Shown here: in pieces, positions 5,546-27,553 of the stretch
Layout of the letters: each line of letters opens with the position of its first letter
How positions within the stretch are numbered: position 1 is the stretch's first letter
Source: an uncultured Phycisphaerae bacterium
GTDB taxonomy: Bacteria > Planctomycetota > Phycisphaerae > Sedimentisphaerales > Anaerohalosphaeraceae
DNA: 32,479 bases
Direction: 5' to 3'
Assembly (NCBI GenBank): GCA_937949545.1
Contig: CALEDR010000033.1
Location: 1-32,479 of the forward strand
Program-made: the position numbers and the translations under genes
The notes under the pieces: model-generated
The model's database searches: none
Told to the model about the DNA's origin: nothing
The model's input: only the letters and a program-made list of their open reading frames with translations

Positions 5546-5577
5546 GATGCCTTTCTGAGGTCCTCTCATCGGAAGTC

Positions 5578-5615
5578 CCCCCAAAAGGGGGCCTGTGCCG
5601 AACGGCACAGACCCC
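5578..5615 (-). promoter_or_regulatory. Two overlapping, mutually exclusive hairpins in a leader
   Basis: In the 92-bp gap between two minus-strand genes, positions 5588-5615 form a hairpin of about 13 bp on the minus strand. Its core arms are CTGTGCCG and CGGCACAG (5593-5600, 5603-5610), extended by four G-C pairs after a G-U wobble. The run 5578-5582 can instead pair with 5587-5591 (CCCCC/GGGGG around AAAA). Both structures need bases 5588-5591, so only one can form. The second would mask the GGGGGGA that might be a ribosome binding site for an ATG at 5569. No U tract follows, so a simple terminator is unlikely. Confidence 0.5.
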
Positions 5616-5637
5616 GTTGTGAATATTCTCTTGCCTT

Positions 5638-7665: not shown

Positions 7666-7703
7666 CGTTTCTTCTCCTGTCTGTCTCATTCTTTCTCTCA
7701 ACC

Positions 7704-9692
7704 CTACTGCCCGCATGCATCCGCCGGAATCAGTCGGCACTCCAGCCAGCCGACTGCAAATTCCGCCAGGTCCGTCAGGTCCACCTGGCAATCCCCGTTG
7801 AAATCATATGCCGGCGCTGTCGGACAAATCGTCGCTCCGGGAACAAAATCCACATACAGCTGCGCCGCTTCCGCCGCTGTCAGCGTGTAATTGTACACCC
7901 GCAGATCATCCATCGCCCCGTTATAAAACGAAGCCGGCGTCCCTCCATTGTTGAACGCCCCCACCGTCAGCGGATACTGCCAGCCTGTAAATCCGCTGGC
8001 CGCCGTAGAAGTTCCGGTGTAAGCCAGCCGTCCGTCCAGGTAAATCCAGCCCTGCCCCGTCCCGCTGTTCCACGCAAACGTCAGCAGATGCCATTGCCCG
8101 TTTCGCAGATTAATGGGAGATGAGAACTGCACCAGCATCTGGCTAGACGCGGCATTCCGCACATACAGCTGCACCGCATTGGCATTGGAGTAGTGGATGT
8201 TCAGCATCGTCCCGTCGGCGGCATTCGCGCTGCCGATAAAGCTGTGCGCGCCGGTCACACTCGAGTTAATCCAGAACGAAACCGTCCCCTCCGACAGCCC
8301 GCCTCCTTCCGTGCCGTTCGGATATCCGCCCGTTCCGATGCTCATTGACTGCGTCCCGTCAAACACCAGCGCCTGCCCGCTGATGCCGGCTGTATAAACC
8401 GGGCTGCCCATCGTCCCGTGATTGACTCCCGCAGAATCATTCAGCGTCCCGTCAAACGTGTAATGAGCCAGCAGCTTCTTGAGCACAATCCGGGCCGCTG
8501 CGGAATTGCCGCTGCCCTGACTGTTCGTTGCCCGGCACCAGTAATCTCCTTCATCGCCCGGCTGCACCCAAACCTTCAGCTGCGCCGTCATCGCCCCCTC
8601 AATATGCCCCGGCTCGTTGACCACCGGACGGGTCGTTACACCGGACGGCCCCTTGTACCACTGATAAGCAAAGGCACTGTCCTGACCGGGTGAAACTCCC
8701 GCTTGCGCCGTTAAAGTGATTTCCTGTCCGACAAATGCCGCTGCACCGCTCGGCTGACTGCCGTACGGCGGCTCAAAGGTCGGAATCGTCTGCGTCGTCC
8801 GGAACGTCCACACATCCCCCTGAACCGTATTGGGGTCATTCGGCCCAGACCCCTGAATGCTCTCATCCACCCTCCAGTAATAGACAGCATTGTTTTCCAC
8901 AAACACCGTTCGGCTTTGTGCTGCCGGATTCGAGGAAACAGCAACTTCCAGAGGAACGACGCCCGCCAGATTCGGGTCGTTCTTCCGCAAATACAAATAA
9001 TGCTTACTCACATAGGGACTGGGCTGATTCGGGTTGGCTGCATCGGTCGGCATCGCCCACTGCAGCATCAGATTCTGCCCGCCCGGCACATCCACCGCCC
9101 CGTCCGCCGGATTCGGCTCCGAAGCCCCCAGCGCCCGAACCGTCAGCCCATCGTACCAGCTCCGGTACGTATTGGCGATGTCGTCAATATAAACCCGAAT
9201 CGTCCCCGCACTGTCCGCTTGAACCGTTCCAATCAGACCTTCATACTCATACCGGTCCGCATCCACCGCCCCGGTCTGTCGGCTGCTGCCGTTGTTCGTA
9301 TTAAACTCGCTTAAACTGTCGGAACTCAACCCTGCCAGCAGACGAATATTCTGCCCGGACGGATTCCAGTACACCACGGAAACCGCATACCGAAATCCCG
9401 GCATCAGTCCGGAAACCGTCGTCACCAGCATCGGACAGTCCCCTAAATAAGATGTGTTGCCGTTGGCCTCCCACAGCATCATTTCGTTGCCAAAGGTGTT
9501 GCGAAGTTTCCACAGACCCGCCGTATCCCCCGTTCCGCTGTTCCACGGGCTCTGACCGCTGACCGCCGCCGTATTGCTTTCTGCTGCATCAACATAAACG
9601 CCCTGATAGACGCTCCCGGTCCATCCCACGGCGGCCGTCCCGCAGGCCAGCCAGACAAACAATTCCAAAAATCCGCTTCTCATCCTTTCCAT
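7704..9692 (-). CDS. Large secreted protein, diverged paralogue: shared module, beta-sandwich, Ig, LamG, dockerin-like tail
   Basis: The protein has 662 residues with the same domain order as the gene at 5638-7665. A signal peptide (MRSGFLELFVWLACGTAAVG) is followed by a diverged copy of the shared module (YVDAAESNTAAVSG ... VVYWNPSGQNIRLLAG ... RVYIDDIANTYRSWYDGL). Then come an FN3-like unit (NPADGAVDVPGG ... YYWRVDESIQGSG), an Ig-like domain (FAYQWYKGPSGVTT ... GDYWCRATNSQGSG) and LamG (AHYTFDGTLNDSAGVNHGTM ... GAMDDLRVYNYTLT). The dockerin-like tail is YDFNGDCQVDLTDLAEFAVG plus CRLIPADAC. GGAAAGGG about 7 nt upstream supports ATG 9692; ATG 9683 is an alternative. It is the first secreted product after the FecR-type gene, 149 bp away. 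It lacks a recognised enzyme domain, so binding or adhesion is the best guess. Confidence 0.85.
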   Translation of the reverse strand: MERMRSGFLELFVWLACGTAAVGWTGSVYQGVYVDAAESNTAAVSGQSPWNSGTGDTAGLWKLRNTFGNEMMLWEANGNTSYLGDCPMLVTTVSGLMPGFRYAVSVVYWNPSGQNIRLLAGLSSDSLSEFNTNNGSSRQTGAVDADRYEYEGLIGTVQADSAGTIRVYIDDIANTYRSWYDGLTVRALGASEPNPADGAVDVPGGQNLMLQWAMPTDAANPNQPSPYVSKHYLYLRKNDPNLAGVVPLEVAVSSNPAAQSRTVFVENNAVYYWRVDESIQGSGPNDPNTVQGDVWTFRTTQTIPTFEPPYGSQPSGAAAFVGQEITLTAQAGVSPGQDSAFAYQWYKGPSGVTTRPVVNEPGHIEGAMTAQLKVWVQPGDEGDYWCRATNSQGSGNSAAARIVLKKLLAHYTFDGTLNDSAGVNHGTMGSPVYTAGISGQALVFDGTQSMSIGTGGYPNGTEGGGLSEGTVSFWINSSVTGAHSFIGSANAADGTMLNIHYSNANAVQLYVRNAASSQMLVQFSSPINLRNGQWHLLTFAWNSGTGQGWIYLDGRLAYTGTSTAASGFTGWQYPLTVGAFNNGGTPASFYNGAMDDLRVYNYTLTAAEAAQLYVDFVPGATICPTAPAYDFNGDCQVDLTDLAEFAVGWLECRLIPADACGQ

Positions 9693-9795
9693 CGTCAGAC
9701 CCTTTCCGAAAAAACGCCTCTTGAAAATGAAACTTCCTCCCGTTTTTTTATTGACCGCCCACCCCAAAACCCGAACGCCCTCCCGTGACCTGTCA

Positions 9796-9826
9796 GCTTC
9801 AGCAAAGAAGGAAGGCGGGAATCCAG
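9796..9826 (+). repeat. Intergenic dispersed repeat, copy A
   Basis: This 31-nt segment matches 15999-16029 with two mismatches in the same orientation, including an identical 22-nt core (9805-9826 and 16008-16029). The core ends GGCGGGAATCCAG, a phrase like that of widespread intergenic REP-like repeats. It lies between the FecR-type gene and the first secreted paralogue. Confidence 0.7.
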
Positions 9827-9841
9827 ACTCTTTTGCCGTAA

Positions 9842-11545
9842 TCACGGCTTTCCGGCTTCATACATCTGCCGAATCTCCCGGGCACTCAAAACCCGATTGA
9901 AAATCGCCGCCTCATCCAAAATCCCGTGAAACCTCTTGAACGAATAATCCACCCCGGGCACGTCCACATCGCCGATCAGCAAATCCGCCGCCGCCGGTTC
10001 CGCCTGATAAACATAGGGTACTGTACTGTGGAGCGTCCCGTTGACATAAAACGACGCTGTCTTGCCGTCATGCGTGACCGCCAGAAAGGTCCATCGGCCG
10101 GGTTCCAGCAAAACCGGCTGACTGCTGAGTTTGGTAAAAAACTGATACCGCAGAAACTGTATCGTATAATCCTCCTGACCGGCGCTGTTCCACCCGTTGA
10201 AATAACTGAGCTGGAAATTGACCCGATTGCCGTCCCGACATGAAAGAATATGACCGCCCAGCGCCTCCGGATTTTCCTGCAGATTCACCCACACCGCCAG
10301 CGTAATCGGCCCGGTCAGACACAGCGCCGGATGCGAGGGCACTCGAACCCCCTGTCCCTTCCGCCGGTCGAACCGCAGGGCGCTCTTCTGCGGCCATCGC
10401 CCGCTCGTCCACTCCGGCGCAGCGGCAAAGCCCTCTCCCAGCCGGCCGTGTCCGACTCCAAACCGCTCTGACACGACATTGTCCAGCACATCCGAGTCCG
10501 ACAGGGCACGTTCGCAGGGAAAATAAGCCGCCAGAGAGGGGTCGCGGCGAAGCGAATACGAATAGGCCTTCCATCGATAATAGCCGCCCTCTTTCTGTGC
10601 CTGAAAACGGATATCCATCTCTTCCGTCCGGACAAAACGAGTGGGGTCAATCAGTTTGACGGCAATTCGGCTGCCCGCATCCGCCTCCGCCCCCTGCCCG
10701 GCACTGAGAAGAAGACGCTGCCGAAAACGAACCGGATTGGACGAATCCCGAATCTCTGCCTGCCCCTCATACACATAGGTTTCCGTATGGCCTGTCGGAT
10801 AAACCTGAACCCCAAACTCTGTCCCATAGTCCACTACGCTGGCCGAAGGCGAACGAACGACAAAGCCCTCCTTGCCTCCTTCCATCTTCGCCACCACCTT
10901 GCCCTCCTGCAGGAAGATTTGGCTGGTCGACTCCAGAACCAGCCTCGAGGGCCCTTCCACCACCAGCGTCGTCCCGCCCTCAAAGAGAAGTTCCGCATAT
11001 CCTTCCGCCAGATGCAGCGGGCCTGTCTTCAGCTCACTGCCCCAGCTCAAAGGGCCGCTCCCATCTCCCCACTTCGCCCCGGCTGTTTTCGACAGCCGTG
11101 CTACAGTCGGACGTGAAGCCCCCGTAAACAAAAAGGCATACACCACCAAAAAAATCAGCGCTGCGGAGGACATCAGCAGGGCATAAAGCGACAGACGGCT
11201 GATTACGGGCTGCTCTCGCCGGTTCTCCCTCCGTTCCTCCCGGCAGACCGACTCCTCTTTCTTCGGCAGGTCAATCGTCTCCGCTGTTTTTTCCGACGCC
11301 GCCAGAGCCGCCCACAGTTCCATATCCAGTCCGCTGTCCTGGCCGTCTTCGGTCCCCATCGGCTCCTGCAGCTCCGGCAAAGTTCTGATATGGGTCAAAA
11401 TCGCCATATAATCGGCATACAGCTTACGGGCTTGTGGCTCCCGCCGCAGAATCTCTTTCAGACGGGCAAAGTCTTCGGGACTGATTGTCCCGTCCACAGA
11501 CGCCGTAATCAGTTCATAAAACCGGATGCACTCATTCTGATTCAT
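9842..11545 (-). CDS. Membrane FecR-domain protein with C-terminal LamG (putative anti-sigma/sensor)
   Basis: The protein has 567 residues. A cytoplasmic N-terminal helical region (ITASVDGTISPEDFARLKEI) looks like the anti-sigma-like segment common in planctomycete FecR proteins. One transmembrane helix lies near residues 118-140 (YALLMSSAALIFLVVYAFLF). A FecR domain spans about 150-270 (GPLHLAEGYAELLFEGGTTL, SASVVDYGTEFGVQVYPTG). A LamG-type domain spans about 365-560 (ITLAVWVNLQENP, RWTFLAVTHDGKTASFYVNG, LDEAAIFNRVLSAREI). FecR proteins pass periplasmic signals to a partner ECF sigma factor. Here the LamG could sense glycan outside the membrane, which is inference. The start overlaps the sigma gene's end by 14 nt, suggesting translational coupling and paired function. 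Confidence 0.88.
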   Translation of the reverse strand: MNQNECIRFYELITASVDGTISPEDFARLKEILRREPQARKLYADYMAILTHIRTLPELQEPMGTEDGQDSGLDMELWAALAASEKTAETIDLPKKEESVCREERRENRREQPVISRLSLYALLMSSAALIFLVVYAFLFTGASRPTVARLSKTAGAKWGDGSGPLSWGSELKTGPLHLAEGYAELLFEGGTTLVVEGPSRLVLESTSQIFLQEGKVVAKMEGGKEGFVVRSPSASVVDYGTEFGVQVYPTGHTETYVYEGQAEIRDSSNPVRFRQRLLLSAGQGAEADAGSRIAVKLIDPTRFVRTEEMDIRFQAQKEGGYYRWKAYSYSLRRDPSLAAYFPCERALSDSDVLDNVVSERFGVGHGRLGEGFAAAPEWTSGRWPQKSALRFDRRKGQGVRVPSHPALCLTGPITLAVWVNLQENPEALGGHILSCRDGNRVNFQLSYFNGWNSAGQEDYTIQFLRYQFFTKLSSQPVLLEPGRWTFLAVTHDGKTASFYVNGTLHSTVPYVYQAEPAAADLLIGDVDVPGVDYSFKRFHGILDEAAIFNRVLSAREIRQMYEAGKP

Positions 11546-12059
11546 ACCGGATATCCCACGCCGCCAGGGTTTTTTGTACGCAGTCCTGCAGCAGAAAATA
11601 GATAAAAGAAATTCTCTTATAAAGCGTATGAATCGACCGATTGCTTTGGCGGGCAATTTCCGCAATCGACAGATTTTGAAAATACTTCATCCGAATCAGA
11701 TTCAAATCGTCCTGGCGAAGTTTCTTCAGACAGCCGGTCAACGCCGCTTTCTGCTCATTCAAATGGCCGACCATCCGCTCATGAGCCGCCCCCAAATCCT
11801 CCAGCAAATCTTCATCCAGCTGAAACTGGCTCTTTTTAATCCGATAATAATTGGCAATTTTGTAGCGGGCAATCTGACGCGCCCACGCCCAGAAACTGCT
11901 TCCGGGACGATAGGTCTCAAACTTTTCCCACATCAGGGAAGCCGTCTCCTGCAGCAAATCCTCTGCATCCGAATAATTCGGCACCAGCGTCAGAATGAAA
12001 CTGAACAAATGATTGCTGTGGGCAAGAAACAGCTTCAAAAATGTATCTTTAGACTCCAT
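11532..12059 (-). CDS. ECF-type RNA polymerase sigma-70 factor
   Basis: The protein has 175 residues, the usual size for an extracytoplasmic function sigma factor. Region 2 is visible as NYSDAEDLLQETASLMWEKF with the following WAWARQIARYKIANYYR. Region 4 is the helix-turn-helix LSIAEIARQSNRSIHTLYKR. It resembles the sigma family expanded in Planctomycetes and Verrucomicrobia. The start at 12059 is preceded by AAGGA (12063-12067); a longer in-frame reading to 12203 lacks sigma homology. It heads the minus-strand cluster and overlaps the FecR-type gene by 14 nt, so it probably drives the secreted genes downstream. The 186 bp to the next gene upstream hold no clear promoter or ORF. Confidence 0.93.
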   Translation of the reverse strand: MESKDTFLKLFLAHSNHLFSFILTLVPNYSDAEDLLQETASLMWEKFETYRPGSSFWAWARQIARYKIANYYRIKKSQFQLDEDLLEDLGAAHERMVGHLNEQKAALTGCLKKLRQDDLNLIRMKYFQNLSIAEIARQSNRSIHTLYKRISFIYFLLQDCVQKTLAAWDIRYESE

Positions 12060-12245
12060 ATATCCTTTTTTGTTTTCGGAATCTTTTCTTTTATCAGATG
12101 TAAACAAACCCCGACTTTGGTATTTTTTGAAGAAAATTGGATTTTTAAGAGCCCCCTGAAACCGAAACTTTGAGCCGTTTTTGCGGAATGCCTTTCCCCG
12201 CAAAACAATGAAACTGCCGGGAAGCGAGTTCTGAATCTTGTTTTT

Positions 12246-16029: not shown

Positions 16030-16048
16030 CTCTAAGGGAGAATCCTTT

Positions 16049-18505
16049 ATGTCCGGCAAACAAACACTCAAACAAATCTTGAACAAAAAAGAGAAATTTG
16101 CCGTTATCGCCGAGTTAACCGGCGGCCCTAACTACAGTTTTGCCCCTATTCTGAATTTTTTGAAACAATATCAGGAAAAAAGCGGCACAGATATTCCCTC
16201 CGACTTCCTCTTAGCCGGCATCACACTCCCTCAAAATCCCGGCGGCATCGCCAACCTCGACCCCGCCGATGTCATCGCCGTCTTCGACCAGAACCACCTT
16301 GCGGACAATCTGGATATCATACCTCACCTGACCTGCAAAGACGCCAACGCAGATTCGCTCCTGAGTTCTCTGGTCGGATATCGACAGCGCGGCATCGAAA
16401 GCATCCTTGCCCTCACCGGCGACAAACCCGTCATGGCCAAAGGAGTCTTCGAGCTTGAATCAATTGGGCTCTTGTCGCTGATTAAACGCGAAAACCAAAA
16501 AGCCGTCCTGTGTGCCAAACCCGGCCGGTGGGATTCCATCCATCAGTTTTTCCCCGGCGCGGCTGTCTCGCCGTTCAAATACACCGAGCCGTCCCTGATG
16601 CAGCAATATTACAAAATGGAAAAGAAAATCGCCGCAGGCGCCCAATTCCTCATCACTCAGGTCGGCTGGGATTGGAGAAAATCCCTCGAGTTAATGCAGT
16701 ATCTCCGAGATAATCATATCAGTATTCCCGTTATCGGGAATGTCTATTGGCTCACAACGCTCACTCCTGCTCCCCGCCTGATGCATGACGTTAAGCTTCC
16801 CGGATGCTTTGTGAGCGATGAACTCTTAGCCAAACTTCAATCCGAATCTGTCGAGCAGCACATCGAGCGGGCTGCCCAGCAGATTGCGATGTACCGAGCC
16901 ATCGGCGCCGCCGGCGCCGATATCGGCGGCGTCCACGATTACCCAACCTTTATCCGAATCCTTCACCGAGCCGCTGAAATCGGAACTGACTGGCAGCCCT
17001 TCCGGGACAATCTCTATTGGCCTCCGAAAAAGACCTTTTATCTCCACGATGACGCCGGCCGACAAACCCTGCTCTCAACCCCCGGAAAAACCGTCCGCAA
17101 ACGCTTCTTTGACTTTATGCACCGCTCCCTGCTCGACCCAAACCATATCGGCTTTCACGCCTTCAAAAAAACCCTCCGTTTCTTCCGAGCCGATAACGAA
17201 CAAAACTGTACCTATAAACTTTTTAACGCTGTCGAAAAACCCGTTAAATACCTCCTTTTTGAATGCGAAGAATGCGGCGACTGCTATTTGCCCGAAAATT
17301 TCGGCTGCTGCACCCTCGGGGAATGCGAAAAAGGCCTCGACAATGTCCCCTGCGGGGATGCGGCCGTGAACGGATTCTGCGGCAACAATCTGAACCGCAT
17401 CTGCGTTGGCGAAACGGTCTATCAATTCGCCCTTACCGAACCCGACGGCCGGCAAAATCTCCGCACCCGCATCAACAAACCGCGCATTCCGTCCCTTGAA
17501 CATACAAGCTCGATTATCAACTATCTATTCGGAAAGGACCATACGATGCACGCACCTCTGATTCAAATCGGTGAAGCCATCCATGCCTCGATTCCCAAAA
17601 CCGGCGCCGTGATGAAAGAACTGGACACCCTCGGCCCGAACGCCTATATCGCCCCCAGCAGCCCGCTGTCGTACATCCAGGCCCTCATCGAAACCCAGGC
17701 CGATGAAGGAGCCGACTATATCGCCGTCAACCTCGACGCCTTCGGGGAAGACAATCCGCAAACCGCGGTGCGGATGATGAAAGAATACGTCAAACTCGTC
17801 CGCCGCTGGGGCAAAGGCGTCCCCGTCTGCATCGATACCAGCAACAATGACGTTCTCATCACCGGTCTGCAGGAATGGTACAACACCGACCAGCCCGTCA
17901 AACCCCCGCTGCTCAATTCCATTAAAGTCTTCACCGCCGATCAAATTATGCCCCTCAAGCGGCAGTATGACTTCCGGTTCATCGGCCTGCTGGTAACCGA
18001 AGGCCGCCCCAAAGGCCCCGGCGGCTCGCATTCCGTCGAAGAGCTCGTCCAGCTCGCCCACACCCTCTACGACAAAGCAATGCAGTACGGCTTCAAACCC
18101 GATGAAATCTTCTTCGACTCTACTGTCTTTCCCATCGCCATCGACCTGCCGATGGAGCCCGGCATCCCCGGCTACACTTACCGCGCCTTTGAAACGATTA
18201 AACGCATCAAAAGCGACCCCAAACTCAGGCACTGTCACTGTTCGCTGGGCATCAGCAACTGCTGCCGAGACCTGCCCGGACGCAAAATCGGCATCTGCCG
18301 TGCCTATGTTGCCAAGGCCATGGAGTACGGCCTTGACGCCGGTATTGTGAATACCTCCCATCAGTACGGCCGCAAAGACCCCGACCCCGAACTGCTTGAG
18401 TTGATCACCGCGTATGCCGAAATGGATGGTTCCCCCGACAAACTCAACCGCGTAATGATGCTGATGGGGCGTTTCTGCGCCTCCGCCGCCCGCAAACCGG
18501 CTTAA
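16049..18505 (+). CDS. Three-domain fusion: methylenetetrahydrofolate reductase, MTHFR_C/MetV-like domain and pterin-binding methyltransferase-like domain
   Basis: The protein has 818 residues. Residues about 1-310 are a MetF-type barrel (FAVIAELTGG, GITLPQNPGG, IIPHLTCKDANADSLLS, GIESILALTGDKP) that would reduce methylene-H4folate to methyl-H4folate. Residues about 395-460 match the MTHFR C-terminal/MetV-type cysteine-rich domain: C406, C409, C412, C420, C421, C426, C435, C444, C452 (CEECGDC, GCCTLGEC, GFCGNNLNRIC), probably a metal or Fe-S site. Residues about 510-800 form a second, pterin-binding barrel of the DHPS/AcsE/MetH type (VPVCIDTSNNDVLITGLQ, LLNSIKVF, SLGISNCCRDLPGRKIGICR, GLDAGIVN). 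The protein may make methyl-H4folate and pass the methyl group to a corrinoid, in methionine synthesis or a Wood-Ljungdahl branch. That is inference. AAGGGAG lies 8 nt upstream of the ATG. Confidence 0.88.
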   Translation: MSGKQTLKQILNKKEKFAVIAELTGGPNYSFAPILNFLKQYQEKSGTDIPSDFLLAGITLPQNPGGIANLDPADVIAVFDQNHLADNLDIIPHLTCKDANADSLLSSLVGYRQRGIESILALTGDKPVMAKGVFELESIGLLSLIKRENQKAVLCAKPGRWDSIHQFFPGAAVSPFKYTEPSLMQQYYKMEKKIAAGAQFLITQVGWDWRKSLELMQYLRDNHISIPVIGNVYWLTTLTPAPRLMHDVKLPGCFVSDELLAKLQSESVEQHIERAAQQIAMYRAIGAAGADIGGVHDYPTFIRILHRAAEIGTDWQPFRDNLYWPPKKTFYLHDDAGRQTLLSTPGKTVRKRFFDFMHRSLLDPNHIGFHAFKKTLRFFRADNEQNCTYKLFNAVEKPVKYLLFECEECGDCYLPENFGCCTLGECEKGLDNVPCGDAAVNGFCGNNLNRICVGETVYQFALTEPDGRQNLRTRINKPRIPSLEHTSSIINYLFGKDHTMHAPLIQIGEAIHASIPKTGAVMKELDTLGPNAYIAPSSPLSYIQALIETQADEGADYIAVNLDAFGEDNPQTAVRMMKEYVKLVRRWGKGVPVCIDTSNNDVLITGLQEWYNTDQPVKPPLLNSIKVFTADQIMPLKRQYDFRFIGLLVTEGRPKGPGGSHSVEELVQLAHTLYDKAMQYGFKPDEIFFDSTVFPIAIDLPMEPGIPGYTYRAFETIKRIKSDPKLRHCHCSLGISNCCRDLPGRKIGICRAYVAKAMEYGLDAGIVNTSHQYGRKDPDPELLELITAYAEMDGSPDKLNRVMMLMGRFCASAARKPA

Positions 18506-18557
18506 AAACAGGGACAGGCACCATTTTTTGCACCCACGGCCTTCGTCCCTTTTGGAA

Positions 18558-19379
18558 TTATTCTTTTTCGCGTATCAGCGGGACAAACCGCACGGGCATT
18601 ACAGAACGCCTGCGAATCCCTCCCTGTCTGTCCTTCTCTACCAATACCAGTTCCTGCACGCCCCATTCGCTGCCCACCGGAATAATCATCCTCCCGCCGG
18701 GCTTGAGCTGTTCCAACAGGGGCTTCGGGATTTCATTCGGCGCGCATGTCACAATCACAGCATCAAACGGCGCCGCCTCCGGCCAGCCCTTATAGCCGTC
18801 CCCAATTCGCACCTGAATCGTCTCGTATCCATACTGGGCAAACGTCTCCTTCGCCCGCTCGGCCAGCGGACGCACAATCTCAATCGTAAACACATGCGGC
18901 GTAAACTCATTCAGCACCGCCGCCTGATACCCCGACCCCGTCCCAATCTCCAGCACCCGCTCATTCGGCTCCAGCTTCAGTACGCTGGTCATATACGCCA
19001 CAATAAAGGGCTGCGAAATCGTCTGTCCGTACCCTATCGGCAACGGCGAATCAACATAAGCATACGCCTGCTGAGAGGCGGGAACAAACCAGTGCCGCGG
19101 CACATTCTGCATCGCCTCCAACACCCGCTCATCCGTCAGGCCGTAGTCCTGCCGAATCCGATTAACCATCTCCATCCGCTCGCGCTGCCGTTCCGCCGTG
19201 CGCGGACGATTCCACCCCGCCGAACGCTCCGGCACAACCGCCGACTCAGACCGTTCAGCAGAAGTACTCGGCTTGTCTTCCCCGGAAGAATTCGGCAGCG
19301 GCTTCCGGCAGGAACTCCAAAAAAGCAGGCCTGTGCTTATCACCCCCATACCCAGCAAAACCATTCGCCCCTTTTCCAT
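18558..19379 (-). CDS. Protein-L-isoaspartate O-methyltransferase-like protein with N-terminal membrane or lipoprotein signal
   Basis: About 273 residues. The C-terminal two thirds is a PCMT domain: RVLEAMQNVPRHWFVP, PLPIGYGQTISQPFIVAYMT, and the SAM-binding VLEIGTGSGYQAAVL, then GDGYKGWPEAAPFDAVIVTC and LKPGGRMIIPVG. PCMT methylates isoaspartyl residues to start their repair, with SAM as donor. Unusually, the N-terminus has a hydrophobic segment (MVLLGMGVISTGLLFWSSC) and a Ser/Glu-rich linker of about 50 residues, as in a signal anchor or lipoprotein (WSSC is a poor lipobox). ATG 19379 is chosen; GTG 19394 and ATG 19364 are alternatives, none with a strong RBS. The 190 bp to the next gene upstream show nothing clear. 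Confidence 0.88.
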   Translation of the reverse strand: MEKGRMVLLGMGVISTGLLFWSSCRKPLPNSSGEDKPSTSAERSESAVVPERSAGWNRPRTAERQRERMEMVNRIRQDYGLTDERVLEAMQNVPRHWFVPASQQAYAYVDSPLPIGYGQTISQPFIVAYMTSVLKLEPNERVLEIGTGSGYQAAVLNEFTPHVFTIEIVRPLAERAKETFAQYGYETIQVRIGDGYKGWPEAAPFDAVIVTCAPNEIPKPLLEQLKPGGRMIIPVGSEWGVQELVLVEKDRQGGIRRRSVMPVRFVPLIREKE

Positions 19380-19569
19380 ACTTCTATTGTACACCCCCGC
19401 TTTTCGCTGTACAACCCCTCAGACCAGCCGCCAAAATCGATCGGACGGATGCAGAATCTTCCCCTGTTGAAGTGTTCCCGTTGTTCCCCGGAAGACACCC
19501 GGCTGTCAGGCATTTGACCTTCTGCAGGATCCCCGTTCCGATTTTGACAGCGGCAGGCGGCGGAAAAGA

Positions 19570-21009
19570 TTATGCGGGCCGTTTGCCCCTTCGTTTTTCC
19601 AAAATCTGCCGGATTTCGTTGGCTTTCCTTTCATCAATCTCATACAGATAAATCACCGCCATTGCCGATGCGGAGGTCGCCAGCGGAATCCCCACATCAA
19701 ACACCCGCAGCCAGAACATCGCCGCTTCCGGCTGAGCGGGGCCGAGATTCACATCAAAGCCGGACAGCCGCAGCAGAATCCCGGCCAGCAATCCGGCTGC
19801 GGACATCCCCACCTTCACCATCCACCAGTAAATCGCCCCAAACATTCCCTCCCGCCGCTGCCCGCTCTGCAGTTCATCATAATCACACACATCCGAAATC
19901 ATCGAGCCCATTAAGGTAAACAGCGACCCCGTCCCGAACGCCACCAGCGGAGCGGCATAGAGCAGCCAATACGGATGATTCGGATTATACCCGACCCACT
20001 TGAGGGCATACCCAATCAGCGACAGGCCGATGGTACAGAAAAAGGTTAGACGCTTGCCGATACGCGTCGCTACCCAGCCGGTCAGCGGAATCACAATCAC
20101 CAGGGTGACCGCCGACATCAGTGTCCCGTACAAACCTTGAAGATGAGCGCCCTGTGAGTCGCTTCCATGGTACACGTAATAAATCATCACATACAGGGAA
20201 AACGACACGCCCAGCTGGTAGCCGTTGAATACCAAAAACGTCGCGGCACAGAGCTTCACAAACGGCCGGCATCGAAAGGTCTGTCCAAATGTCTTAAAAA
20301 AATCCAGAAGGTTCTTCCATACACCGCCCTGCGTCTGCGCCGCCGGCGGCATCTGGGCAAACCGCTCTCGACAGAAAATCGCCGGCACCACCCCCAGCAC
20401 CGCCACCGCTGCCCCGATAAAGACCGCCAAAACCCGTGTTCCCTGAACTTTATCCGCAAAGAGTTTTTCGTTGACCACAATCGCAAAAAACCACGGTGCA
20501 ATCAGCCAGGCGGCCTGCCCCACCGTATTGGCGAAGGTATGCAGGCGGGTGCGTTCGTGATAATCCGGCGTCATCTCATAGCCGAACGCCACGAACGGCG
20601 TCGCATAAACCGTGTAGGCCCCGAAAAATACCAGTGAAGCCGTCAGGAAAACCCAGACATAAAACGCCTGGCTGTGTCCGGCCGGCAGCTGCCACATCAG
20701 AGCAAAAATCCCCCCCGACAGAATAGCCCCCCAGAAAATATAAGGACGCCGCCGCCCCCATCTCGAGCGAGTGTTGTCGGAGATGTATCCCATTACCGGG
20801 TCTGTCAAGGCATCAAACGCGCGCGGGACAGCGGCCAGCAAACCCACCAGCACCGGGTCCACCTTCAGCCCCAGATTCAGAATCACCACCATCGCCGGCA
20901 GGGCTGCCGCCTGAAGGTTGTTGACAAACATCCCCACCGCATACGCTGACTTCTGCAACAGCCCAATCCGGTCTTCGGGGGCCGTTTTCGAGAAAGACCC
21001 GAAAATCAT
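19570..21009 (-). CDS. GPH-family sugar:cation symporter (MFS_2)
   Basis: The protein has 479 residues with about 12 membrane segments. The glycoside-pentoside-hexuronide symporter signature is clear: FDALTDPVMGYISDNTRSRW followed by GRRRPYIFWG. The second-half loop GWVATRIGKRLTFF is also typical. Such carriers import mono- or oligosaccharides or glycosides with Na+ or H+. AAAGGAG lies 5 nt before the ATG at 21009. It diverges from the GH-A hydrolase gene across a 170-bp control region with back-to-back -35 boxes and a LacI-type operator. It is probably the importer for the products of the neighbouring hydrolases; the exact sugar cannot be read from sequence. Confidence 0.92.
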   Translation of the reverse strand: MIFGSFSKTAPEDRIGLLQKSAYAVGMFVNNLQAAALPAMVVILNLGLKVDPVLVGLLAAVPRAFDALTDPVMGYISDNTRSRWGRRRPYIFWGAILSGGIFALMWQLPAGHSQAFYVWVFLTASLVFFGAYTVYATPFVAFGYEMTPDYHERTRLHTFANTVGQAAWLIAPWFFAIVVNEKLFADKVQGTRVLAVFIGAAVAVLGVVPAIFCRERFAQMPPAAQTQGGVWKNLLDFFKTFGQTFRCRPFVKLCAATFLVFNGYQLGVSFSLYVMIYYVYHGSDSQGAHLQGLYGTLMSAVTLVIVIPLTGWVATRIGKRLTFFCTIGLSLIGYALKWVGYNPNHPYWLLYAAPLVAFGTGSLFTLMGSMISDVCDYDELQSGQRREGMFGAIYWWMVKVGMSAAGLLAGILLRLSGFDVNLGPAQPEAAMFWLRVFDVGIPLATSASAMAVIYLYEIDERKANEIRQILEKRRGKRPA

Positions 21010-21060
21010 CTGTCTCCTTTCCGATTTAACTGATCGCCGCTCCTGAACCCTCCAAATGTC

Positions 21061-21089
21061 AGCCTAAAAAACCCGGCGGCCTCTGTCAA
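21061..21089 (-). promoter_or_regulatory. Candidate promoter for the GPH symporter
   Basis: On the minus strand, TTGACA (21084-21089), a 17-bp spacer and TAGGCT (21061-21066, weak -10) point at the symporter. Its -35 is separated by 8 bp from the -35 of the divergent GH-A promoter. Confidence 0.5.
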
Positions 21090-21102
21090 GATTTCTCTTG
21101 AC
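21085..21102. promoter_or_regulatory. Perfect inverted repeat GTCAAGA-TTTC-TCTTGAC spanning both -35 boxes
   Basis: Seven-bp perfect arms (21085-21091, 21096-21102) with a 4-nt spacer lie exactly over the two outward-facing -35 elements. The symmetry follows partly from two TTGAC motifs placed back to back, but the extra AGA/TCT pairs also match, so a shared activator site is possible. Confidence 0.5.
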
Positions 21103-21125
21103 GAAAACGCAAAATATTTTAAAAT
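21098..21125 (+). promoter_or_regulatory. Promoter of the GH-A hydrolase gene
   Basis: TTGACG (21098-21103), a 16-bp spacer and TAAAAT (21120-21125) each match consensus in 5 of 6 positions. The expected start of transcription falls near 21132, inside the LacI-type operator. Confidence 0.65.
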
Positions 21126-21128
21126 AGC

Positions 21129-21137
21129 AAACGGTTT
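21129..21137. promoter_or_regulatory. LacI-family operator core AAACGGTTT, site 1
   Basis: AAAC-G-GTTT is a palindrome of the type bound by LacI-family repressors. It overlaps the predicted transcription start of the GH-A gene. The 12-nt context AGCAAACGGTTT (21126-21137) is identical to that at 23221-23232 in front of the lacI-type gene. Confidence 0.75.
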
Positions 21138-21179
21138 TTAATGAAGTTGCCTAAAAACATCTCCTCAGGAGAAATGTCC

Positions 21180-23141
21180 ATGGCCTCATTGTTTCTAATC
21201 CGTCCAAAAATGTTCGGAACGGCTGTAATTCTCTCGGCCTGTTTTCTGCTGCTTTTTTCCCTGCTTTTGCAGGCTCAACCTTCACCGGCTTATCCCGCTG
21301 TCCTGAGCGGCCCTTATACCGTTCAAAAAGATGAAAACGGAAAATATTGGTTCGCCGATTCGGCAGGCCGCCGATTCTTGTCTATCGGCATCAACAACAT
21401 CACTCCCGAACCATTCCGTCCCCGCCCAAACACGCAGTATTATAATCCTGTTCCCACTGTCTTTGGCGGCGATTTTCACGCCTGGAAACAGGAGGTCCTG
21501 CAGCTGCTCCGTGACCACGGGTTTAATACCCTCGGTGCCTGGTCCGACGGGCGGCTTTATGATGGGCCCATCCCGGGCACCATCTGCCTATATGTGGCCG
21601 CCCACAGTTCTGACCGTTGCCTCGATGCCCTCCGACCGGATTTCGAAAAACGTGTGCGTCAAAATATCCAAACCGCTCTGGAACGCTATCCTCACACAAG
21701 CAATCTGCTCGGGGTCTTCCTGGATAACGAAATGCCCTGGTACGGCCATGCTCCCTGGGGCGAAATCCCCAATTCCACGCTCCTTGAAGCCGCCCTGGCC
21801 TTGCCTAAAGAAGATGCCGCTCATCAAGCCGCCGTCAAATTTCTCCAGCAGCGATACAGTTCTGCAGACAATCTCGCCAAGGCCTGGGGCAAACCGCTCG
21901 ATTCGTGGGACAATCTGACCCCCGATTACGCCCGCTCCTGCCTGAGTCCGGCGGCGCATCAGGACCGGCAGGCTTTTATCGGCTATGCCGCCGACGCTTT
22001 TTATCGCCTCTCTGCCCAAGTCGTTCGCCAAATGATGCCCGGTGTCCTCATCTTAGGCACCCGCTTTGCCGCCTATGCCCCTCAGCCGGTCATTGAGGCC
22101 TGCGGACGCTATTGCGATGTCATCTCCTTTAATGACTATCGTGCCGCCCCCGCCGCCGATCCGGATATGATCGCCCGCTACTGGATTTGGGGCGGACAAA
22201 AACCCCTTCTCATCACAGAATATTCCTGGCGTGCTGAAGAAAACACCAGCGGCAATCCCAACACCGGCGGTGCCGGCGCGGTCGTGAAAACACAGGCCCA
22301 GCGTGCCGAAAACTATCAAAAATATGTCGAAGACCTCTTGTCTTACCCCATCGTGATTGGTGCCCATTGGTTCGAATTTGCCGACCAGTCCCCGCAAGGC
22401 CGTTTTGACGGCGAAAACTCCAATTACGGCATTGTGGATATTTATCATCGCCAGTACACGGAATTGCTTGCCGCAATGAAGCAAACCAATTCTCAAATCG
22501 CCGAAATCCACGCCAAATCCTCCAAAACGGCCCCAGCTGAACTGCCCAAACCCAAAAAAGTTCGCCTCGAAATCGCCCAGCGTCCTGAACGCTCGCCCTC
22601 CATTGACCTCCTCCACGCCGAACCGCTTAAAAATCCCGAACTCTTCCAGGCCCCGGATGCCTCCATCCAGCTCGAAGCACTTGCTCAAAATCAGGGCGTT
22701 CAAATCGCGTTGCAAACCGGACGCGACTGGGGCTGCGGTCTGCTCCTGTTCGGCCCCAAAGGCGCCAAAAGTGTCCGCGGAGCCGATTTCGCCTCGGATC
22801 TGGACGGCTACAGCGCCGTTGAGCTCGACGCCGAAATCCCGCAAGCCCTTGCTTTTCAATGTTTTATCGATGAAGCAGGGGTCGATCGTCCTGATGCCGC
22901 CTCCTATGACACCCGGGCCGGCGATGACGCCGAAAGTTTCATTTTTGCCCTCATTCACGGCAGCGGAACCCGCAAAATCTATCGGCTGAATCTGGCGGAG
23001 CTGGAACCCAGAACCGCCTGGGGCAATCAAAAAGGAGCCGGCCGAGTGGACCTGTTCGCCCTCAAAGGAATTGGTCTGTACTTCCCCGGCAGCCAGGGAA
23101 ACCACACCATCAAACTTTATGCCCTCAGACTCGTCCGATAA
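21180..23141 (+). CDS. Secreted GH-A clan glycoside hydrolase, GH50/agarase-like
   Basis: About 653 residues. A signal peptide or anchor (FGTAVILSACFLLLFSLLLQA) is followed by a TIM-barrel hydrolase of about 400 residues. Segments RRFLSIGINNITPEPF and LLRDHGFNTLGAWSDGRLY resemble GH50/agarase-type proteins. GVFLDNEMPW offers E184 as acid/base and LLITEYSW offers E347 as nucleophile, the usual GH-A arrangement. The C-terminal 200 residues look like a beta-sandwich. It would cut a beta-linked polysaccharide; agar-type specificity is not established, and the neighbours suggest beta-glucan. AGGAG (21167-21171) lies 8 nt before ATG 21180 but only 2 nt before ATG 21174, so 21180 is preferred over 21141. 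Regulated by the operator at 21129. Confidence 0.75.
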   Translation: MASLFLIRPKMFGTAVILSACFLLLFSLLLQAQPSPAYPAVLSGPYTVQKDENGKYWFADSAGRRFLSIGINNITPEPFRPRPNTQYYNPVPTVFGGDFHAWKQEVLQLLRDHGFNTLGAWSDGRLYDGPIPGTICLYVAAHSSDRCLDALRPDFEKRVRQNIQTALERYPHTSNLLGVFLDNEMPWYGHAPWGEIPNSTLLEAALALPKEDAAHQAAVKFLQQRYSSADNLAKAWGKPLDSWDNLTPDYARSCLSPAAHQDRQAFIGYAADAFYRLSAQVVRQMMPGVLILGTRFAAYAPQPVIEACGRYCDVISFNDYRAAPAADPDMIARYWIWGGQKPLLITEYSWRAEENTSGNPNTGGAGAVVKTQAQRAENYQKYVEDLLSYPIVIGAHWFEFADQSPQGRFDGENSNYGIVDIYHRQYTELLAAMKQTNSQIAEIHAKSSKTAPAELPKPKKVRLEIAQRPERSPSIDLLHAEPLKNPELFQAPDASIQLEALAQNQGVQIALQTGRDWGCGLLLFGPKGAKSVRGADFASDLDGYSAVELDAEIPQALAFQCFIDEAGVDRPDAASYDTRAGDDAESFIFALIHGSGTRKIYRLNLAELEPRTAWGNQKGAGRVDLFALKGIGLYFPGSQGNHTIKLYALRLVR

Positions 23142-23182
23142 TCTTCAGCTATGCTCTGCGGCCGCACCCTTAAAAAGAATCG

Positions 23183-23211
23183 TTGACATCCGACCCCTGA
23201 AAAGATATAAT
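23183..23211 (+). promoter_or_regulatory. Full-consensus sigma-70 promoter of the lacI-type gene
   Basis: TTGACA (23183-23188), a 17-bp spacer and TATAAT (23206-23211) match consensus exactly, the strongest promoter in the window. Transcription should start near 23218, just ahead of the operator at 23224-23232. Confidence 0.85.
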
Positions 23212-23223
23212 GCATTCATAAGC

Positions 23224-23232
23224 AAACGGTTT
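23224..23232. promoter_or_regulatory. LacI-family operator core AAACGGTTT, site 2
   Basis: It is identical to site 1 over 12 nt (AGCAAACGGTTT, 23221-23232). It lies a few bases downstream of the predicted transcription start of the regulator's own gene, consistent with autorepression. Confidence 0.75.
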
Positions 23233-23278
23233 CTAATTGTGTTTTTGAACAAGAAAATAAAAGAGGGAACTTGCAGCG

Positions 23279-24310
23279 ATGAAATCGACAGCTCCCAATT
23301 TGAGCGATGTAGCCGCCCAAGCGGGCGTCAGCAAATCCACTGTCAGCCGCATCCTGAACAACCGGCTCGGAAACGGCTTCTCGGTCAAAGAGGAAGTGCG
23401 GCAGCGTGTCCTCGAAATCGCCCGCAAACTGAATTACCGCCCCAACCTCATCGCCAAGAGTCTGACGATGCGGTCTACCAAGATGATTCACATTATCGGC
23501 GGCAATCACGCCCTCAGCCAGCTCGGAAACATCTATCAGACCATCGTCAACCACATCACCGAAGTTATCGATTCCAAGGGACAGGGCTTTGACGTGACGG
23601 TTGACATGTCCAAACACAAACCCGACGAAAGCGAAATGCCCGCCTGGAAAATCGACGGTGCGATCATCCTTGCCCGCTGCACCGAACCGACTATGGAGGA
23701 AATCCTTCAATTGGGTATCCCGTATGTCGTCATTAACGGCCCCGCCCCTGCCGGAGGAACCTCCGTAGTCCCTGATGACGTCCAGGGAACCCGCCTGGCC
23801 CTCAAACATCTGATGGAGCTGGGGCATCGCAAAATCGCCTATACACCGCCGCCCCGAAAATATATGATGGTCGGCCATTCGAGCATCGCAGACCGCCAGG
23901 AAACGTATCTGGCCCAGATGAAGAAAAACGGTCTTGACCCCATCATCAGCTCCCTCGACGTGCTCGAAGACACCGAAAAACTTCTCCAGGAACTGGTGTT
24001 TGAACGAAAAGTGACCGCTATCTTAGCTTACGGTCATATGGAAGCCCTGAACCTTCTTCAGGCCGCACACTCCCTCGAAATCCCCGTCCCCGAACGGCTC
24101 AGCGTCATGTGCTTCTGTGATCACTACGCCAACAAAATTATGAGCCCGGGCCTGACTTTTATAGACCTGGGTTCAGCCCAAATGGGAACCCTCGCCGCTC
24201 AGCTGCTTCTCGAACAAATCACGCAGTCTGATAAACAAAAGCCTAAACGGGTGGTCCTCGACGAAACACTTTGCGTCCGCAGCACCACCGCACCGCCTTC
24301 TCCGAACTGA
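23279..24310 (+). CDS. LacI-family transcriptional repressor
   Basis: The protein has 343 residues. The N-terminal helix-turn-helix and hinge are typical (NLSDVAAQAGVSKSTVSRIL, then VLEIARKLNYRPNLIAKSL). A periplasmic-binding-protein-like effector domain follows (IDGAIILARC, VVPDDVQGTRLALKHLMELG, DPIISSLDVLED, ERLSVMCFCD). It should bind the AAACGGTTT sites at 21129 and 23224 and release them when a sugar binds. Its gene sits between the GH-A gene and the phosphorylase-type gene, which starts 20 bp after its stop, so regulator and enzymes are probably co-transcribed. GAGGGA upstream is the RBS, with a longish spacer of about 10 nt. Confidence 0.95.
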   Translation: MKSTAPNLSDVAAQAGVSKSTVSRILNNRLGNGFSVKEEVRQRVLEIARKLNYRPNLIAKSLTMRSTKMIHIIGGNHALSQLGNIYQTIVNHITEVIDSKGQGFDVTVDMSKHKPDESEMPAWKIDGAIILARCTEPTMEEILQLGIPYVVINGPAPAGGTSVVPDDVQGTRLALKHLMELGHRKIAYTPPPRKYMMVGHSSIADRQETYLAQMKKNGLDPIISSLDVLEDTEKLLQELVFERKVTAILAYGHMEALNLLQAAHSLEIPVPERLSVMCFCDHYANKIMSPGLTFIDLGSAQMGTLAAQLLLEQITQSDKQKPKRVVLDETLCVRSTTAPPSPN

Positions 24311-24330
24311 GCCCCACACGGACCGAATCC

Positions 24331-27300
24331 ATGAAAACAAAAATCGCCAACCCGAAAATCTTCCAAACGAAAACCGAACTGCCGACCGGTTATCATCTTG
24401 AGTCCGGCGGGGTCTTCCGCATTGACCAATATGACAGCCGGCCAGCCTTTGCCGGATTCCTCCCCGGAATCGGCGGACTGGACGGCGTGCCTCTCTGGTG
24501 CCTGTATGTCAACCGCGGACAGGCCGTCTCCTCTTTCGGTGTCGCCAACAAAAATCACGCCATCCTCGAATTTCTGCCTGCCAACTGGGCGTATCAGATG
24601 ACCCCGATTCAGGGGTTTCGCACCTTCTGCTGCGCCGACGAGGTCATCTTTGAACCCTTCGGGCTTCGGAACCGTCCGGCAGACAGTGTCCAACGTTCGC
24701 TCTGGATCGAGACGGACCGGATCAAAATCCGGGAAGACAACGAGCCCTTCGGCCTTCGATTCGAAGTCGTCTATTTTTCTCCCGTCAATCAGCCGCTCGG
24801 CTCGCTCATTCGCCTTCTGACCGTCTCGAACCTGACGACCAAAACTAGAAAACTCCTACTCTTGGACGGACTGGCGCAGCTGCTGCCGGCAGGCTTTACG
24901 GAACTGGGTATCAAAACCATGCGCCGAATCTACGAAGCCTATGCCTCCGTTCGGCTCATCGACGGCCGCATCCCGTTTTATGCCGCACGCGTCCGGGTTC
25001 ACGATGAGGCTGAAGTCGAGGAGGTGCAAAGCGGAAACTTCTACGCCTCCTGGCTCAGCGAGGGCGATTATCTCCTGCCCGTCGAACCCTACTACGACCC
25101 GGACGTCATCTTCGGGACCGACCAGGACCTCCTTCTGCCGCGGCACTTTACCCCGCAGGGGCTGCCCGACCGTTCCATTCAAGTCGGCGAAAACAAGCTC
25201 CCCTGCGCTTTGACGCCAATTCAGACCGCTCTGGGACCGCAGGAATCCCTTGTCTTGGTGTCTATCGCCGGAACGGCCCCGAATGAATCGCTTTTGAGGA
25301 CGTTCCTGTCCAATTTCCAGAAATTATCTGATTTTGAAACCGCCTCTCGGCAGAGCCGCAAAACCATTGAAACGCTCACAGCGCCCGCCTTTACGCTCTC
25401 TGCCGACCCGCGGCTGGACGGCTACGCCCGTCAGAACTTTCTCGATAACATCCTGCGCGGGGGTATTCCGTATTCGCTGCCTTCCCACCGGGGGCCTGTC
25501 CTGCTGCATCTGTATTCCCGCAGACACGGCGACGCCGAACGAGATTACAACTTCTTCGACCTGCCTGCCTGTCCTCTGTCCAGCGGAGAAGGAAACTACC
25601 GCGACATCTGCCAGAACCGCCGAAACAATCTCTGGTTTTACCCCCAAACGGCGGATGCAGAAATCCGGATGTTTGCCTCCCTGCTTCAGCCGGACGGCTA
25701 CAACCCCCTGTCCGTCAAAGGATACCGGTGGCTCTGGCCGAAAAGCCACAATCCTCTGTACGTCTGCCCTTCGGAGGATTCCGCGGCACAAGATGCCTTT
25801 GCGTCCATTCTGAAACGGCCCTTCCTGCCCGGCGAACTGCTCGCCTGGGCCAACCTGTATGCCCCCAATCTTTCCGCCCGGCATTCCTGGCTCGAGCAGA
25901 TTCTCTCCCGCTGCGACGTTCATCTGGAGGCCTGCGGCCACGAAGGCGGCTATTGGATAGACCACTGGACCTACATCACTGACCTGCTCGAATCCTATGA
26001 GGCCCTCTATCCGGAACGCATCCAAACCATTCTCACGGAGCCGGCTGATATCGAATGGTTCTGTGAACCGGCTCAGGTTGTGGACCGCAGACAGAAATAT
26101 CTCCTCCGGAAAAAAGGACTCCGGCAGCTGCATGCAGTGCAGGATGCTCCCTGTCCGCCGGTCCCCCTGCCGCCGGTGACGCTCTTCGGAAAACTCTGCG
26201 CTTTGCTGGCCCTGAAAATCGTCTCTCTCGACTTCGAAGGCCGCGGCGTCGAAATGGAGGCAGGCCGGCCCGGCTGGAATGATGCCCTCAACGGTCTGCC
26301 CGGCTTGTTCGGATCCTCCACCTGTGAAACAGCGGAAATCTGCCGGCTGACCCGCTGGCTCCTGCGCATCCTGCCGGCAATACCGGATACACGCTTCCCG
26401 GAAGCCGTTGCCGAACTGCTCGAAAACGTCCTGGCCGATGTCCGCTCGGATTATTCCTGGCACCGAGCTGCCGACATCCGGGAGTCCTACCGCCGGAAAA
26501 TCTATCAAAACACCTCCGCCAAAACTCGGCTCATCAAAGGAGCCGTACTCAAAAAACTCCTGCATGGCATCCTGGCACGCGGCGAAAAAGCCGTTCAGGA
26601 GTCCATCAATCCGAAAAACGGCCTCCTTCATACGTACTATTTTCATACCCCGCAGCCGCCTTCGGCAGGCCGTCTTGAAGACATCCGTTCGTTTGAAGCC
26701 CATCCGCTGCCCCTCTTCCTCGAAGGCCAGGTCCACTGGCTGCGCATCTGCGACACCCAAACCGCCCGCCGTATCTCCGCCGCCGTGCGCCAAAGTCCCC
26801 TCCTCGACCCGCATCTGAAGATGTACAAGCTCAACGAATCGCTGGAATCCTGCTCGCCGGAAATCGGACGGGCCCGAACCTTCACACGCGGCTGGTTCGA
26901 AAACGAATCCGTCTGGCTTCATATGACTTACAAATACCTGCTCGAACTGCTCAAGCACGGCCTCTATGAGGACTTCTTCGAGGATGCCCAAACCATGCTG
27001 GTGCCCTTTATGAAGCCGGAAGTGTACGGACGCAGCATCCTCGAAAACAGCTCTTTTATCGCCTCCTCCGTTTGTCCGGACCCGGAGGCCCGCGGACGCG
27101 GCTTTGTCGCCCGCCTGTCCGGCAGCACCGCCGAATTTATCCACATCTGGCTCCTGCTGACCGTCGGCGTCCGTCCTTTCCGTCTGGACGCCGGACGGCT
27201 CATTTTTGAACCCGCCCCGGTACTTCCCGGTGACTGGTTCACCCGACAGCCGCATACGATTCGATGGAAGGACCGTTCCTTCCTGGTTCCGGAAAACACC

Positions 27301-27501: not shown

Positions 27502-27553
27502 CAAAATCCGGACAGATGATAACCGATAATTGATAACTGACTCGGGGGTACCA

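Follow-up and report, generated by a model that had tools for sequence, protein, structure and literature searches.

A MetF-MetV-methyltransferase fusion conserved in an order of Planctomycetota, a probable one-carbon enzyme acting on a separate corrinoid protein

One gene in a 32,479-nucleotide stretch of DNA from an uncultured Phycisphaerae bacterium (assembly GCA_937949545.1, contig CALEDR010000033.1; hereafter the window, meaning the whole stretch analyzed) joins three one-carbon domains in a single chain. The gene lies at 16049..18505 on the plus strand and encodes 818 residues, comprising a MetF-type methylenetetrahydrofolate reductase (MTHFR) barrel, a cysteine-rich MetV-type domain, and a methyl-tetrahydrofolate (methyl-THF):corrinoid methyltransferase (MeTr) barrel. 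The protein is probably a trifunctional one-carbon enzyme whose MeTr part methylates a separate corrinoid protein, serving a split methionine synthase in most of the order (Sedimentisphaerales). Its reactions and folds are known ones; what is new is their covalent arrangement, which is deeply conserved. Methylene-THF reduction and corrinoid methylation both feature in methionine synthesis, acetogenesis, and methyl-group oxidation, where, to our knowledge, known systems assign them to separate proteins. We found no description of a MetF-MetV-MeTr fusion in the open-access literature, covered mostly below full text, and nothing on Sedimentisphaera or Anaerohalosphaera among the matches listed.

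The frame is open from the ATG at 16049, 5' of which AAGGGAGAA (16034..16042, plus strand) was read by eye as a plausible ribosome-binding site, and 62 relatives share the same layout. On the plus strand, the MetF barrel spans residues ~5–310 (16061..16978), the MetV-type/DUF5981 cysteine domain residues 390–460 (17216..17428), and the MeTr barrel residues 501–814 (17549..18490). We placed the fusion junction at residues ~497–503 (17537..17557), as matches to two-domain MetF-MetV relatives mostly stop at 499–517 and matches to standalone MeTr start at ~481–504. All three domains exceeded curated Pfam cut-offs: MTHFR (PF02219) at residues 86–264 (E 5e-18, 65.8 bits versus a cut-off of 24), DUF5981 (MTHFR_C, PF12225; MetV-type) at residues 390–460 (E 1e-9, 38.4 bits versus 23), and Pterin_bind (PF00809) at residues 546–738 (E 4e-9, 36.9 bits versus 25.5). 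NCBIfam models pointed to the same relations (PRK08645, the AcsE-type PRK07535, MetH, and others), none above its cut-off. The protein fell below the AcsE cut-offs (PRK07535, 88 versus 259 bits; NF040758, the methyltransferase of carbon monoxide dehydrogenase/acetyl-CoA synthase [CODH/ACS], 53.6 versus 370) and below that of canonical MetH (TIGR02082, 50.7 versus 1010.85 bits). In a sequence search of the PDB, the C-terminal part matched the AcsE/MeTr structure 2yci (E 8e-12), and MTHFRs were matched as well.

The predicted structure supports the same assignments. An AlphaFold model made with an input of 63 fusions had a pLDDT of 90.4 and a pTM of 0.89. Residues 501–814 matched the pterin domain of Bacteroides MetH (3k13; Z 29.0, root-mean-square deviation [rmsd] 2.5 over 272), an O-demethylase methyltransferase (4o1e, Z 28.8, with 4o1e/4o1f among the top matches), and MeTr (2yci, Z 28.2), and residues 5–310 matched Thermus MTHFR (3apy; Z 24.7, rmsd 3.1 over 272 residues). 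Among the fold matches listed for this full-length model, none was confined to the MetV part (residues ~311–500). Identity of the C-terminal barrel with dihydropteroate synthase (DHPS) was considered and rejected, as the genome has a separate DHPS and the fold match to 3tyc reached Z 20.5 versus 28–29 for MeTr-type folds.

Residues expected to be functional are largely retained across an alignment of 63 fusions, the window's protein included. Here and below, genomes are labeled G and loci L, with G000 the window's own genome; the fusions of G047, G055, and G058, that of L131, and the distant fusion L229 were left out of the residue reading. MetF residues E22, D125, and Q204 are invariant (63/63), D125 and Q204 aligning with the E. 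coli MetF motifs ALRGD and ITQ and E22 assigned by eye; we take the three to be the counterparts of E. coli E28, D120, and Q183. In the alignment with 2yci, numbered by hand, D596, N623, D690, and N737 pair with the catalytic MeTr residues D75, N96, D160, and N199. The title of PDB entry 2ogy, MeTr Asn199Ala, supports N199 as a mutagenesis target. This D/N/D/N set is intact in 53/53 fusions outside one fast-evolving clade and in 24/24 distinct standalone MeTr loci read; the standalone MeTr of G042 and G046 keep it with the nearby R745 and R751 replaced. The cysteine domain holds nine cysteines between C406 and C452, the number given in the sequence-only reading and recounted in the translation, and eight of them (all but C420) are invariant in 63/63 fusions. 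By its sequence, the domain is a predicted Fe-S domain. Purified MetVF enzymes carry one or two [4Fe-4S] clusters in MetV (PMC8515935).

Read from the letters alone, the protein had been proposed to combine MetF, a MetV-like domain, and a pterin barrel in one 818-residue frame. Pfam, the PDB sequence search, the AlphaFold folds, and the 62 relatives all bear this out. The same reading had identified the C-terminus as a pterin methyltransferase and had tied this identity beforehand to a pterin-binding match and retained folate-contact residues. We found both, in the Pterin_bind and 2yci matches, the fold matches at Z 28–29, and the aligned D/N/D/N positions.

The sequence-only reading had also suggested a search for the same architecture elsewhere, and the fusion proved widespread in the order and present in a second phylum. 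Our main sample comprised 59 genomes, the window's own among them, of which 35 were at least 90% complete (hereafter good genomes). A full-length fusion was found in 38/59 (own genome counted); these matches, with the 62 aligned relatives, rule out an assembly or frame artifact or chance. Two further genomes (G002 and G055) had a near-full fusion minus the last ~110 residues, G024 had the fusion halves on two contigs, and G008 had an N-terminal half at a contig end together with a standalone MeTr. A standalone MeTr of ~320 residues occurred without the fusion in 14/59 genomes and beside it in four (G015, G023, G043, and G051). Three genomes had neither: G019 and G026, which carry CODH/ACS and AcsE-like proteins, and G038, which carries a full MetH. 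A wider search of 392 genomes of the phylum gave just 16 with a match at 1e-20; nine belong to the window's order, and in the other seven the match covers the MetF-MetV part alone. The second phylum, to which Kiritimatiellales locus L062 belongs, matched in 36/288 genomes, with three fusions at 57–63% identity and five at 38–41%; the other matches covered the MetF-MetV part or less. All three close fusions have an intact MeTr D/N/D/N set, as do the four distant ones that were read (L225–L229 except L229).

In two loci from other planctomycete families (L171 and L183), a two-domain MetF-MetV gene is followed by a separate MeTr gene and, in L183, then by Fhs. This arrangement is likely the unfused counterpart of the fusion. 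The MeTr domains of the fusions formed their own group in a quick MeTr tree (84 SH-aLRT, with few outgroups and long-branch warnings), which we used mainly for defining the fast-evolving clade.

This clade (11 rows, 99 SH-aLRT) has a decayed MeTr domain and serves as a built-in natural control. Fusions whose MeTr asparagines are gone, with MetF and MetV intact, were seen at L081, L084, L085, L086, L087, L090, L092, L093, L095, L133, and L212. N623 was lost in 10/10 aligned members and N737 in 9/10, while all listed MetF and cysteine residues were kept. An intact MeTr was found elsewhere in 8/10 genomes of the clade (seven standalone, one intact fusion), versus 2/20 controls, which were intact-fusion genomes picked in the order of the alignment list. 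The two controls with a second intact MeTr were G464 and G468; the second copy of G453 was degenerate, G454 had an AcsE-like match, and G460 had a MetH-sized match. When it is the sole copy in a genome, the fused MeTr thus tends to retain its catalytic residues, which argues for a probably active enzyme in genomes like that of the window. Several of the fusions with a decayed MeTr adjoin NuoEF-like and formate dehydrogenase genes (L081, L084, and L090) or AcsE (L090).

A candidate acceptor for the methyl group is widespread in the order. At least 33/35 good genomes encode an MtbC/MtgC-type corrinoid protein of ~210 aa; among the matches listed, it was absent from G038 and G053, and six less complete genomes (G007, G022, G024, G026, G033, and G058) either lacked it or had a truncated copy. 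The window's genome carries its own (G000:C21, L115:7985-8611), with B12-binding and B12-binding_2 domains. In G005, which belongs to the window's genus, the corrinoid gene, Fhs, and the fusion form one run in the same direction. In L062 and L236 of the second phylum, FolD, the fusion, Fhs, the corrinoid gene, RACo, and DUF1638 share a strand, and a PocR regulator gene is divergently oriented. The earlier suggestion of a corrinoid protein as acceptor is supported as likely by domain and fold identity and by linkage of this kind.

Other loci connect the system with methionine synthesis. L098 holds a homocysteine methyltransferase, PocR, the corrinoid gene, Fhs, FolD, and the N-terminal part of a fusion at the contig end, with DUF1638 as well. 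Standalone MeTr genes lie immediately after the corrinoid gene in G021, and immediately before a bifunctional homocysteine methyltransferase/MetF gene in G042 and G046. Within 7 kb of 90 fusion/MeTr loci, many of them short through 1.5-kb flanks or contig ends, we counted Fhs in nine, FolD in five, NuoEF-like genes in five, formate dehydrogenase in four, DUF1638 in three, and AcsE in three. DUF1638 was near genes of the system in L062, L098, L121, and L236.

Three further gene types recur around the corrinoid gene. AraC-type regulators with a PocR sensor lie beside corrinoid or fusion genes (L098:2880-4226, L115:9947-11257, L116:6956-8233, and L236:11047-12234) and mark a candidate one-carbon regulon. 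MtaA/CmuA-like proteins of the uroporphyrinogen decarboxylase (URO-D) family are encoded beside or near the corrinoid gene (L115:8678-9763, L062:16377-17753, and L184:6548-8218, the last by Pfam only); a thioredoxin-like domain was matched as well in two of these three. Of the 15 best-scoring corrinoid loci, 11 have a fused electron transfer flavoprotein (ETF) alpha/beta gene adjoining that of the corrinoid protein, and ETF-bearing loci include L100–L103, L105, L106, L108, L110–L112, L114, and L119. In the longer locus L119, an ETF:quinone oxidoreductase-like frame was seen by eye beside the fused ETF. The fused ETF is a possible electron partner.

Gene content across the order favors a methionine role. 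Among the 59 genomes, the MetH activation domain (PF02965) was found in six (two marginal), the MetE C-terminal domain in five (one partial), the homocysteine S-methyltransferase family PF02574 in 55, the CODH/ACS subunit CdhC in 13, and the reactivase RACo in 53. Setting aside G017 for a weak partial MetE match, 28 of the 35 good genomes had neither the MetH activation domain nor a full MetE, and the PF00809 search found no MetH-sized pterin frame in these 28. A MeTr was present in 27 of them, fused in 18 (G008 counted) and standalone in nine; the exception, G019, has AcsE-like proteins. RACo was found in 27, the corrinoid protein in at least 27, and MeTr, corrinoid protein, and RACo together in at least 25, in sets compiled by hand from tables. 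PF02574 was present in 35/35 good genomes. Only two of the 35, G012 and G038, had a MetH activation domain, and both were without RACo. The window's genome has two PF02574 proteins (C39 and C27) and a RACo/RamA-type reactivase (G000:C1; L173:5829-7607). It gave no PF02965 match, and its PF00809 search returned only DHPS and the fusion.

In the mechanism we propose, the MetF barrel would reduce 5,10-methylene-THF to 5-methyl-THF, with electrons arriving via the Fe-S MetV domain. The fused MeTr barrel would bind the methyl-THF and pass its methyl group to cob(I)alamin on the separate ~210-aa corrinoid protein. A PF02574 homocysteine S-methyltransferase would then, in most of the order, use the methyl-corrinoid to form methionine, and a RACo/RamA-type ATPase would rescue oxidized corrinoid. 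This arrangement would amount to a split methionine synthase in which the folate part and the reductase supplying its methyl-THF form one chain. For the window's genome, where MetE is also present, an MtaA-like protein may be an additional or an alternative partner of the enzyme. We infer these activities, the identity of the corrinoid partner, a ferredoxin- or ETF-like electron donor, and methionine as the main product. More tentatively, it is possible that methyl-THF, being made and consumed in one protein, need not enter the free pool, that methyl-corrinoid, and not methyl-THF, is the cell's general methyl carrier, on which both homocysteine methyltransferases and MtaA-like enzymes draw, and that ferredoxin- or ETF-linked electrons make the step reversible. 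Among characterized MetVF enzymes, the electron route is ferredoxin or additional NADH modules (PMC8760232, PMC8515935).

The closest known parallels are the split methionine synthases of Phaeobacter inhibens, backed by mutant fitness data (PMC5764234), and Ruegeria pomeroyi (MtgC/MtgD/MtgE), backed by knockouts (PMC12478193). These systems likewise combine PF00809, a separate corrinoid protein, PF02574, a RamA/DUF4445 reactivase, and DUF1638 (PMC5764234, PMC12478193). Since the parts are the same, by analogy we favor a reversible methylene-THF/methyl-THF/methylcorrinoid enzyme with methionine use in most of the order. In contrast to the Phaeobacter and Ruegeria proteins, the PF00809 part here is fused to MetF and the MetV-type domain, and DUF1638 is seen only in some relatives' loci. 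The acetogen MetVF enzymes (types II–IV) share the pairing of MetF with a cysteine-rich MetV (PMC8760232, PMC8515935), but theirs are separate subunits with metV before metF, whereas here one chain begins with MetF and adds a methyltransferase. AcsE/MeTr, the O-demethylase methyltransferases, and the MetH folate domain share the fold and the MeTr-type D/N/D/N, at only 19–26% identity in structural alignments. PRK08645, a homocysteine S-methyltransferase/MTHFR, is also a MetF fusion for methionine, and the window's genome has one (L002, above cut-off); there MTHFR is fused to the homocysteine end, whereas here it is fused to the folate end. Core-MetE similarly methylates homocysteine from a corrinoid (PMC7005905, PMC7857596) but is a MetE-type protein without a folate module.

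Several observations weigh against a split methionine synthase. Linkage to partner genes is scarce: the count within 7 kb of the 90 loci gave four corrinoid genes, four PocR, two PF02574, and one RACo, and around five distant fusions (stretches L227 and L232–L235) no partner gene sought was found. In the window's genome, the neighbors of the corrinoid gene are an MtaA/CmuA-like URO-D methyltransferase and a PocR/AraC regulator rather than a homocysteine methyltransferase. The fusion and a MetH-type protein occur together in G012, G027, and G029, of which the less complete G027 and G029 also have RACo. Full MetE is present in the window's genome and in G004, G014, and G043; because the window's genome has it, the fusion need not be its route to methionine, and methionine auxotrophy on loss would not be expected in this species. 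The Fisher test behind the contrast between fast-clade genomes and controls (p 2.9e-4) ignores shared ancestry, as the former are one clade, and the non-random choice of controls. Two fast-clade genomes are without an intact MeTr elsewhere: G447, judged by its coordinates probably the same as G006 (71% complete), has an AcsE-like match only, and G442 has nothing else; AcsE-like matches were found in the fast-clade genomes G444, G446, and G449 too. Between methionine synthesis and one-carbon energy metabolism, a choice the sequence-only reading had left open, gene content and a few linked loci favor methionine for most relatives, and the MetE of the window's genome weakens the case there.

The enzyme could instead run backwards, as a methyltransferase II plus dehydrogenase that oxidizes methyl groups. 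An MtaA/URO-D-like or other methyltransferase I would load the corrinoid from a methylated substrate, MeTr would move the methyl group to THF, MetF-MetV would oxidize it to methylene-THF, and FolD and Fhs would yield formate and ATP. The high-ranking O-demethylase fold match (4o1e/4o1f, Z 28.8) fits such a role, as do the URO-D and PocR genes adjoining the corrinoid gene in G000, G001, and G003 of the window's genus, the fused ETF gene next to the corrinoid gene in most of the best-scoring loci, and the Fhs and FolD genes adjoining several fusions. In Ruegeria, too, the pterin and corrinoid proteins (MtgD and MtgC) take part in betaine demethylation as well as in methionine synthesis, and the gene of a MetF paralogue lies next to mtgD (PMC12478193). 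We nonetheless consider methyl oxidation unlikely as the general function. L098, G042, and G046 tie the system to homocysteine methyltransferases, and the system is near universal in an order mostly without MetH and MetE, for which a housekeeping role fits better. MtaA-like enzymes also methylate thiols from methyl-corrinoid, and the URO-D gene is therefore compatible with either direction.

Two other roles are far less probable. If the fusion were the Wood-Ljungdahl methyl branch feeding acetyl-CoA synthase, its position next to AcsE and Fhs in L090 (G015) and L131 (G023), in genomes with CODH/ACS, would be explained, as would L068, where an intact fusion is flanked by Fhs on one side and by NuoEF-like plus formate dehydrogenase genes on the other. 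However, the L090 and L131 fusions belong to the degenerate-MeTr clade (L131 outside the residue count), and only 13/59 sampled genomes have CdhC. The search for CdhC gave no match in the window's genome, where acetyl-CoA synthesis looks closed and a CODH/ACS role is rejected; we find this branch scarcely credible as the fusion's general role. Alternatively, the C-terminal barrel could be a structural or regulatory relic in a protein that works as MetF-MetV only. This is likely for the fast-evolving clade, which illustrates that catalytic residues can go while MetF and MetV stay intact. For the window's protein it is quite improbable, since the four catalytic positions are intact there and in all 53 fusions outside that clade, and no other non-DHPS pterin protein was found in its genome.

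In the window, a PCMT gene identified by Pfam (18558..19394, minus strand) converges on the fusion gene and is not part of the system; a plus-strand frame at 18528-19517 was rejected as a partner gene, having no Pfam match and lying antisense to PCMT. No Rfam family, known riboswitches included, was found at the gathering threshold in the window. The commonest neighbors of the fusion across loci (ThiD2-ThiE, SmpB, TrpC, TauE, and DUF4870) look like plain synteny. Further along, 19570-29005 looks like a beta-glucan utilization cluster, with a GPH-type sugar symporter, a distant Glyco_hydro_42-like protein, a LacI regulator, GH16, and a weak match to the GH149 beta-1,3-glucan phosphorylase. At 3092-12203, four large Laminin_G_3 proteins lie in series on the minus strand after a sigma-70-like gene; three have Ig-domain matches (one below cut-off), one has BNR_4, and one has FecR.

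With one chain predicted to carry out both reactions, this protein is a natural test of channeling from MTHFR to a corrinoid methyltransferase. For the order as a whole, the fusion is a candidate answer to how members without MetH and MetE make methionine.

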